Below are positions 1,718-26,919 of a DNA stretch of 34,088 nt, piece by piece. Location: assembly GCA_023700925.1 (NCBI GenBank), contig JAMPXZ010000009.1, positions 1 to 34,088 of the forward strand, written 5' to 3'. A model generated the notes under the pieces. It was given only the letters and a program-made list of their open reading frames with translations. It searched no databases and had not been told where the DNA came from. The first letter of the stretch is position 1. Every line of letters begins with the position of its first letter. The translations under genes and the position numbers were made by a program. This DNA comes from Oligoflexia bacterium (GTDB taxonomy: Bacteria > Bdellovibrionota > UBA1018).

Positions 1718-1758
1718 TTGAGCGCAGTGTAGTAAGTCTTTAGCATCCAGGACAGGAT

Positions 1759-1835
1759 GGTCGCCTTTGGCGACCGCCTCCGAACTTGGAATGATCCGCT
1801 TCGCGGATCGCCGAAGGCTTTGTTCCAAATCCGAC
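1759..1835 (+). repeat. 77-bp direct repeat copy A with tRNA T-arm-like end
   Basis: GGTCGCCTTTGGCGACCgCCTCCGAACTTGGAATGATCCGCTTCGCGGAT...GGCTTTGTTCCAAatcCGAC; aligns without gaps to 2118-2194, about 7 mismatches by eye. Confidence 0.85.
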
Positions 1836-1843
1836 ACACTGGG

Positions 1844-2042
1844 AGGCCACCATCTTCCACCCTCATTACGACCCAATACTTTCGGTCATTCCCCTTTCTT
1901 CTCGTGAGGGAGAGGGCTTGCGCCGGCCAGGGATGGCCACAAAGGCGAGAGGGCATGGATGCCCGTGCCTTAACCCTCACGAGAAGAAGGGGGCATGACA
2001 GCAAGATTTAGAGTTCGTAATGAGGGGGGAAGATGGTGGCCT
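1844..2042. repeat. Long inverted repeat 1 (arms 1844-1871 / 2015-2042; inner arms 1891-1910 / 1974-1993) with REP-like core
   Basis: AGGCCACCATCTTCCaCCCTCATTACGA versus reverse complement AGGCCACCATCTTCCcCCCTCATTACGA (27/28); inner CCCCTTTCTTCTCGTGAGGG arms 19/20; core contains GGCCAgggaTGGCC and GGGCATggATGCCC. Confidence 0.85.
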
Positions 2043-2117
2043 CACCAAGAATGGCGCTCCGGCCCCTGCCTCCGCGCATCGGCAAGGATGCCGCACATCC
2101 TGTGCGGCTCATGATAA

Positions 2118-2194
2118 GGTCGCCTTTGGCGACCACCTCCGAACTTGGAATGATCCGCTTCGCGGATGAGCGAGGGCTTTGTTCCAAGTTCGAC
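2118..2194 (+). repeat. 77-bp direct repeat copy B
   Basis: See copy A; contains hairpins GGTCGCCtttGGCGACC and ATCCGCttcGCGGAT and inverted repeat GAACTTGGAA...TTCCAAGTTC. Confidence 0.85.
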
Positions 2195-2360
2195 CCTCGG
2201 GCGTCGCGATCTCCTCTTCAATTTCCCAAGTAAGCCTGAGGACTCGTGCGAGCCAGGAAGGCGCGAGCACAGAGGACAGGATGTCCGTGTCCGACATGGC
2301 TTACTTGGGAAAGTGAAGAGGAGATGGTGGCCTCACCAAGAATCGAACTTGGAACAAAGC
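2176..2360. repeat. Long inverted repeat 2 whose right arm is the 3' half of tRNA-Arg plus its 3' flank
   Basis: Left 2176-2236 GCTTTGTTCCAAGTTCGAcc...TCTCCTCTTCAaTTTCCCAAGTAAGCC; right 2298-2360 reverse complement GCTTTGTTCCAAGTTCGAtt...TCTCCTCTTCAcTTTCCCAAGTAAGCC. Outer 18 bp identical, inner 27 bp with one mismatch. Confidence 0.9.
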
Positions 2361-2399
2361 TTTAGGAAAGCTCCGTTATATCCATTTAACTATGAGGCC
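2325..2399 (-). tRNA. tRNA-Arg (anticodon CCT), CCA encoded
   Basis: GGCCTCA acceptor pairs with TGAGGCC; anticodon arm GAGCT-TTCCTAA-AGCTT; T-arm CCAAG-TTCGATT-CTTGG; A discriminator + CCA. Confidence 0.9.
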
Positions 2400-25553: not shown

Positions 25554-25637
25554 GTTCGATTCTCGCCATCACAAATAACAAAGCCCACCGGCTGAAGCCG
25601 ATGGGCTTTGTTATGGAGGTGACGGTGAGAATCGAAC
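25554..25637. repeat. Inverted repeat copying tRNA-Cys 3' end
   Basis: 25554-25593 GTTCGATTCTCgCCaTCACaaATAACAAAGCCCAcCGGCT versus reverse complement of 25596-25637 GTTCGATTCTCaCCgTCACctccATAACAAAGCCCAtCGGCT. Confidence 0.88.
25575..25614 (-). terminator. Strong stem-loop immediately after tRNA-Cys
   Basis: ATAACAAAGCCCACCGGCT-GA-AGCCGATGGGCTTTGTTAT, 19-bp stem with one mismatch. Confidence 0.65.
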
Positions 25638-25689
25638 TCACAAAAAACGGTTTTGCAAACCGTCCCATTAGCCATTTTGGTACGTCACC
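25614..25689 (-). tRNA. tRNA-Cys (anticodon GCA), CCA encoded
   Basis: GGTGACG/CGTCACC acceptor, ACGGT-TTGCAAA-ACCGT anticodon arm, GTGAG-TTCGATT-CTCAC T-arm, T + CCA. Confidence 0.95.
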
Positions 25690-26498: not shown

Positions 26499-26587
26499 CG
26501 GGGACTGAAGAGGAGGTCTCCTTTGAGGTAGGGGACCCCCCTTTGAAACTTGGCGGACCATCCATCGGTCCTTTTCGTTCCTCCTTT

Positions 26588-26670
26588 GGCAGCCCGGCTG
26601 ACAAGAACCGCCGGGGTAAGCGGTTCGTAGCCCCGTGGCTTTGCGTCCCGGCCTTTCGGCGCGGTTTGCC
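26588..26670 (-). ncRNA. Cyclic-di-GMP-I (GEMM) riboswitch aptamer
   Basis: Minus strand GGCAAACCGCGCCGAAAGGCCGGGACGCAAAGCCACGGGGCTACGAACCGCTTACCCCGGCGGTTCTTGTCAGCCGGGCTGCC: GEMM hallmarks GCAAACC, GAAA tetraloop, GGGACGCAAAGCC, second stem GAACCGC/GCGGTTC, GCCGGGCTGCC. Confidence 0.9.
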
Positions 26671-26919
26671 TTTTTCAAAGGGGGTTGAGGTTGAACCCGC
26701 CTCTTCAAAGCGCCCTTTCCGTGGGCTAAAGACTGATAAGCGCTAGCTTTATTCCTATTATGGTTTCCAGCTAACTTTGTTAAAACCTCTATAAACATCC
26801 TAATGCGGCGCGTCGCAAAATGCAAGAGCTGTTTTTAATGCTATGAAATCCCAAGAAAAGTTCTCTCAACGTCCACCCTGATTTTTCCGAAAAGAGACTC
26901 AAGGAGGCGTTCGCCGGCC

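Follow-up and report, generated by a model that had tools for sequence, protein, structure and literature searches.

Why should a tRNA gene be followed by a stack of palindromes that repeat its own 3' end in both orientations? The question is raised by the first 34,088 nucleotides of contig JAMPXZ010000009.1 (the whole stretch analyzed, hereafter the window), which comes from a draft metagenome-assembled genome (MAG) of an Oligoflexia bacterium (GCA_023700925.1; 3.35 Mb, 262 contigs, 88.6% complete; G000, here the own genome), and in which a 580-bp array of nested inverted repeats lies downstream of tRNA-Arg(CCT). A sequence-only reading of the window had likened these palindromes to a family of non-autonomous elements carrying or copying the tRNA terminus. 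Comparison with related genomes points to a hitherto undescribed family of miniature mobile elements living at tRNA ends. We put at roughly 0.6 the probability that its units are miniature non-autonomous integrative elements (about 130–400 bp, non-coding) which integrate in the T-loop of tRNA and transfer-messenger RNA (tmRNA) genes by means of a tRNA-matched, foldable attachment site, the window holding a tandem of one intact and one decayed copy.

A tandem array behind tRNA-Arg(CCT)

The array is formed by one complete and one truncated unit in tandem, downstream of tRNA-Arg(CCT), with the following parts.

2325–2399, minus strand: tRNA-Arg(CCT), CCA encoded, located with ARAGORN and Rfam, with the proximal copy as its last 19 nt
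2209–2324, minus strand: T module of unit 1, a long hairpin (minimum free energy, MFE, −66 kcal/mol) with arm A (2298–2324), a core of paired hairpins (2237–2297) and arm A' (2209–2236)
2176–2208, minus strand: INV1, the 3' half of tRNA-Arg in inverted orientation, exact over 18 nt in the T-arm part (2176–2193) and diverged in the acceptor part (2194–2208)
2053–2175, minus strand: E module of unit 1 (class II/III), with hairpin D (2151–2175), a T-stem copy (2140–2150), hpA (2118–2134), hpB (2091–2107, GGA-centred) and hpC (2053–2086); the architecture recurs at other tRNAs with different stem sequences
2034–2052, minus strand: DIR1, a direct copy of the tRNA-Arg 3' end, exact over 19 nt and with CCA included, ATTCTTGGTGAGGCCACCA
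1853–2033, minus strand: T module of unit 2, a long hairpin (MFE −97 kcal/mol) with REP-like cores such as GGGCATGGATGCCC
1817–1852, minus strand: INV2, a second inverted copy of the same 3' half, degenerate; CCA part 1843–1852
1745–1816, minus strand: E module of unit 2, truncated, with hairpin D2 (1792–1816), T-stem (1777–1791) and hpA (1759–1776)

Read in the direction of the tRNA, a complete unit runs from the CCA end through the T palindrome, INV and the E hairpin module to DIR, an exact copy of the last 17–21 nt of the tRNA; unit 2 is considered decayed because no distal copy follows its truncated E module. The nested inverted repeats noticed earlier are real, and repeat analysis recovered their arms where they had been placed: 2209–2236/2298–2325 (96% complementary) with 2176–2200/2336–2360, and 1843–1871/2015–2043 (97%) with 1879–1917/1967–2005. 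The right arm at 2298–2360 is, as had been claimed, the last 36 nt of the tRNA plus 27 bp of flank, and the left arm at 2176–2236, described as having an exact 18-nt outer end and a diverged middle, contains INV1. The cores likened to repetitive extragenic palindromes (REP) were also present, GGACAGGATGTCC at 2274 and CCGCACATCCTGTGCGG at 2091–2107. The key feature of the array, DIR1, had not been singled out.

The array also contains a direct repeat of 84 nt (1759–1842/2118–2201, 88%). Folding of the 366 nt that extend from the tRNA to DIR1 is far more stable than expected by chance, with a z-score of −11.5 relative to dinucleotide shuffles. Rfam 15 gave no match over the array, nor any credible match except tRNA in 14 unit loci. 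A phage origin was rejected, as the 580-bp array had no match in 50,697 phage records, and a plasmid search returned a single short match, from a Prevotella record, which covered the tRNA part.

A family of units matched to their own tRNAs

All 35 tRNA matches of the own genome were collected, and 33 could be tested for a repeat of their last 17 nt. This sequence recurred exactly within 600 bp downstream in seven of the 33, compared to none of 1056 cross-comparisons with the ends of other tRNAs. Direct copies of the own 3' end were found 114–400 bp downstream of Gln-CTG, Gln-TTG, Gly-CCC, Arg-CCT, Leu-TAG, Ser-CGA, Ser-GCT, Ser-TGA and Pro-TGG, and inverted copies at several further tRNAs. Units occupy other tRNAs likewise in the congener G001, in G020 and in G022; the loci read in G003 showed no such copies, neighbouring tRNAs within a cluster aside. 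BLAST of the array against the own genome, a check proposed by the sequence-only reading, also found relatives adjoining other tRNAs. The same architecture at many tRNAs and at tmRNA, in the own and related genomes, bears out the proposed family of non-autonomous elements.

Among 31 units, the best match of DIR was the unit's own tRNA in 29 and that of INV in 23, and none of 20,000 permutations reached either sum. Gln-CTG and Gln-TTG are followed by nearly identical E modules, yet each DIR reproduces its own tRNA end. Many tRNAs of the own genome and of G001 have a contig end 100–650 bp away in the 3' direction, so assemblies probably break at units and the counts are probably too low.

A hairpin module conserved in fold

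E modules of class I fold into two hairpins with conserved internal loops; those of class II/III, the class found in the window, have a 7-bp hairpin with a 3-nt loop followed by a GGA-centred hairpin, and their stem sequences vary between tRNAs while pairing persists, as compared by script and by eye. For class I alone, a covariance model (R1) was built from six E modules with tRNA sequence excluded. It matched 35 times in nine of 55 genomes of the order, and 45 times in 14 of 370 genomes of the phylum, including small genomes of two distant families. Over 44 distinct sequences, 92.9% of cells were paired, and 23 of 26 base pairs showed both-sided (double compensatory) change, with a covariation score of 0.647 compared to 0.176 when shuffled and ≤0.1 for slid partners; as R1 itself found and aligned the matches, the pairing counts lean towards R1 to some degree. 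By computation, the INV–E–DIR pairing and the covariation of E together describe an imperfect palindrome foldable as a single strand. G:U accounted for 7.7% of non-GC pairs, relative to 15.7% in tRNA stems; an early idea, that E must act as DNA because it avoids G:U, was weakened by the G:U count (see below).

Of 43 R1 matches read in context, 34 immediately followed a tRNA or tmRNA encoded on the same strand: ARAGORN placed a tRNA upstream of 31, and the other three came after a tRNA-Ser, a tRNA that a group I intron seems to interrupt, and a tmRNA. Most other inspected matches were later members of arrays (at tmRNA in G021 and Arg-CCT in G022) or were followed by a tRNA-like 3' half, the tRNA being out of reach; the remainder include one at a contig end and one weak partial match. 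At L352 (G344, contig C15), an Rfam group I intron match stands just 5' of a tRNA-like 3' half, which is followed by a class I unit, and the tRNA there probably contains an intron.

Signs of insertion

At four loci (Arg and Val of G344, Arg of G345, Leu of G348) the distal copy includes CCA and the proximal copy has no encoded CCA. The far copy therefore looks like the original end and the near copy like one supplied by the element, the repeat shared by the two copies extending from about C56 to position 73. An orthologous tRNA-Arg locus lacking the element, which the sequence-only reading had suggested looking for, was found in G006, where both the tRNA and the downstream flank align with those of G020 while the 305-bp unit of G020 is absent; in this alignment two stretches match the last 19 nt of the tRNA. 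Between the own genome and G001, upstream synteny at Arg-TCT and Gly-CCC extends as far as the tRNA 3' end and breaks off there, and only one of the two genomes has a unit at the break. Such pairs are few and compare diverged genomes, related at genus or species level. As in tRNA-targeted integrative elements, a direct repeat of the 3' end of the RNA gene stands at the far side of the unit and the gene is kept intact. Together these comparisons suggest that the units are mobile and indicate that they insert in the T-loop and restore the tRNA.

Recombinases and neighbouring islands

The genomes are draft MAGs, and the absence of a gene from them is weak evidence. Six intact PF07508 large serine recombinases were found in the searched genomes, all of them convergent at a tRNA or tmRNA 3' end, and an island of about 20 kb with such a recombinase, in G022, terminates in a class I unit whose tRNA copy matches at 21/21. 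Just upstream of units there are also two tyrosine-integrase genes in G052 and a fragment of one in G029. Islands with other genes are flanked by units in G022 (contig C31) and G021, and units also flank an island in G029 (C74). In the G021 case (L299, C69, 10967–18970), tmRNA is followed by a unit array with about 7 kb of cargo, which includes a long histidine-kinase-like open reading frame (ORF) and an IS21-like transposase ORF. At L260 (G001, C13, 4105–6227) the open frame of a large serine recombinase overlaps the 3' part of tmRNA in the opposite direction.

A large serine recombinase as the sole enzyme was rejected, being absent from the drafts of the own MAG, G345, G349 and G350. A dedicated tyrosine integrase was likewise set aside, as XerC and XerD are the only tyrosine recombinases common to the own genome, G001 and G022. 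Because no serine recombinase was found in the own MAG or in G349, and G349 has just two tyrosine recombinases, both of Xer-like score, no dedicated enzyme follows the units. Serine recombinases and Xer are still candidates for the enzyme. As for an integron integrase, the best score against TIGR02249 was 39 bits, with a cut-off of 265, among the three tyrosine recombinases other than XerC and XerD of the 88.6%-complete own MAG and one from G052.

The T module and other features of the window

In some units the T module is a short palindrome resembling a terminator; in others it is a long hairpin whose core holds two GGA/TCC-centred hairpins. Similar paired hairpins occur in the own genome without a tRNA nearby, at L037 (C205, 100–230; upstream of an ORF resembling Lon protease) and L021 (C247, 1460–1515), and the T core therefore looks like a separate, independent REP-like module. 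Its alignment has weak statistics, and the counts away from tRNAs cover 176 kb of loci. The tRNA-bound part is INV–E–DIR. The earlier picture of tRNA-derived ends alternating with REP-like cores needs correction in that the T core is not tied to the tRNA, and the composite may combine a REP-like hairpin with a tRNA-bound unit. An Arg-type T module without a tRNA body adjoins the same degraded ORF in both congeners (L077, own genome C140, 400–645; L139, G001 C16, 3300–3730).

Elsewhere in the window, the 3' flank of tRNA-Cys (25614–25689, minus strand) contains a terminator and a partial inverted T-arm copy, with no direct copy; it is probably a decayed unit, and a scan of this flank with the class I model gave no match. 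A c-di-GMP-I-GGC riboswitch aptamer (Rfam RF03167, 63.1 bits) lies at 26584–26679 (minus strand).

A model of integration at the T-loop

Under the model we favour, integration in the T-loop would bring a new tRNA 3' half with the left end of the element, so that the tRNA would stay intact, and the original 3' half would be displaced to the far side and persist as DIR. The excised form would be a circle in which E is joined to the tRNA half of the left end. INV would pair with DIR or, in the circle, with the left-end copy, generating a hairpin attachment site whose tip is E. The 3' half of the host would be swapped in by strand exchange in the T-loop, and refolding of the site would be limited to a tRNA whose 3' half matches INV. 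Matching to the tRNA, conserved folding, arrays, presence and absence between relatives and displaced CCA-bearing ends, as they appear from comparison, argue for such an element; the circular intermediate, strand exchange in the T-loop, recognition of a folded strand and a recombinase acting in trans are steps that we infer.

Several observations weigh against this model. The CCA pattern is reversed at Leu of G345 and Ser of G349, where the proximal and not the distal copy carries it, and INV is degenerate in several units, the acceptor part of INV1 in the window included. G:U pairs, rarer in E than in tRNA stems, are still present (14 GU versus 4 AC). The T core stands without a tRNA at the two loci given above, and no recombinase is tied to the units: no serine recombinase was found in the drafts of the own MAG and G349, and G349 has only two tyrosine recombinases, of Xer-like score.

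Alternative explanations

The units could also be scars, that is, right ends (attR modules) of deleted tRNA islands of tyrosine or large serine recombinases, surviving as cis-mobilizable remnants and not as elements in their own right. The convergence of all six PF07508 recombinases on tRNA or tmRNA ends speaks for this, as do the units directly after three tyrosine-integrase islands and one large-serine-recombinase island and those flanking the islands of G022 C31 and G029 C74. However, the right end of an island has just part of the tRNA end ahead of the unit, which marks the unit as a block of its own; complete units are also frequent in genomes whose searches yielded no such enzyme (neither the own MAG nor G349 gave a serine recombinase, and the tyrosine recombinases of the latter are only Xer-like); and islands differ between tRNAs whereas unit architecture is constant. 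We regard scars as possible but doubtful.

Fold-back replication, in which template switching at terminator or tRNA hairpins creates palindromes by local mutation without any mobile element, would suit T palindromes that run exactly into the tRNA end with locus-specific, nearly perfect arms; it is improbable given that E modules of the same families are found at different tRNAs and, with compensatory changes, in distant families of bacteria, and that CCA status varies among distal copies. Even less probable are REP or REPIN-type elements moved by a REP-associated (RAYT, Y1) transposase and inserted behind tRNAs by chance, an origin hinted at in the sequence-only reading. The own genome has 12 Y1_Tnp matches, and the T core has REP-like hairpins also away from tRNAs, but Y1_Tnp presence does not correlate with that of the units: none was found in unit-bearing G012 and G029, it is present in G003 and G006, both without class I units, and around eight RAYT loci there were no such hairpins. 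Ends matched to a tRNA are not a known feature of REP elements. Lastly, a host structure, such as a structured RNA governing tRNA termination or maturation, might be seen in the terminator-like short T modules and the strongly conserved E structure; with patchy presence at the same tRNA between congeners, copies in tandem, and E placed behind the terminator, this seems to us highly implausible.

Comparison with known systems

The T-loop integration mode we favour has a precedent, as it is documented for the ssrA islands of Dehalococcoides, which integrate there with 3'-end repeats of about 20 bp and form tandem arrays (PMC3146451). Like these islands and their cis-mobilizable relatives, the units have a repeat of the gene 3' end at the far boundary, arrays at one RNA gene and a conserved motif just upstream of each repeat (PMC3146451). 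The Dehalococcoides islands, however, are kilobase-sized, encode CcrB-like serine recombinases and use one gene (PMC3146451), whereas the units are non-coding, 130–400 bp long and found at many tRNAs, and they include an inverted copy of the tRNA as well as a large conserved hairpin module.

Short non-autonomous hairpin repeats and Y1 genes in the genome recall REP/REPIN, but E copies are bound to tRNA or tmRNA, with tRNA-matched ends and no RAYT correlation, in contrast to neighbour-independent intergenic dispersal; only the T core occurs elsewhere too. Miniature inverted-repeat and palindrome-associated transposable elements (MITEs and PATEs, IS200/IS605 derivatives) are also small, palindromic and non-coding, but the ends of the units are not fixed: they copy the target tRNA, with repeats of 17–21 bp. 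The literature searched on tRNA-associated palindromes contained nothing matching a miniature, tRNA-matched, folded unit.

tRNA genes are classic docking sites of genomic islands. Neither Rfam nor the literature searched contained a small non-coding passenger that copies the tRNA end both ways and keeps its fold across distant families. Such units would account for stacked palindromes behind tRNAs, for assembly breaks there and for extra docking sites of islands.

The attC sites of integrons are palindromic, with imperfect arms around a variable structured tip; they occur in arrays and have to be refolded after exchange. The units share the imperfect palindromic site, the structured tip and the arrays, and the proposed logic would be that of an integron cassette with an attC-like folded site and the tRNA T-arm as receiver. 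T-loops carry GTTCRA at the place of the integron R box GTTRRRY (cleavage G^TT), but all tRNAs share this motif, and the start of the repeat lies at about C56/R57. By contrast with integron cassettes, no integron integrase was found, the arms correspond to the 3' half of the tRNA next to them, the structure of E is conserved and most units have no gene. We offer only as a speculation, which we consider unlikely, that this is a tRNA-anchored counterpart of the integron, in which cassettes with folded sites matched to each tRNA 3' half would be inserted in order at the T-loop and re-mobilized only at a matching tRNA; the enzyme would be a recombinase that does not belong to the integron integrases, perhaps the XerC/XerD of the host. 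With these units, the existence of a second system of folded-DNA recombination besides integrons also becomes testable.
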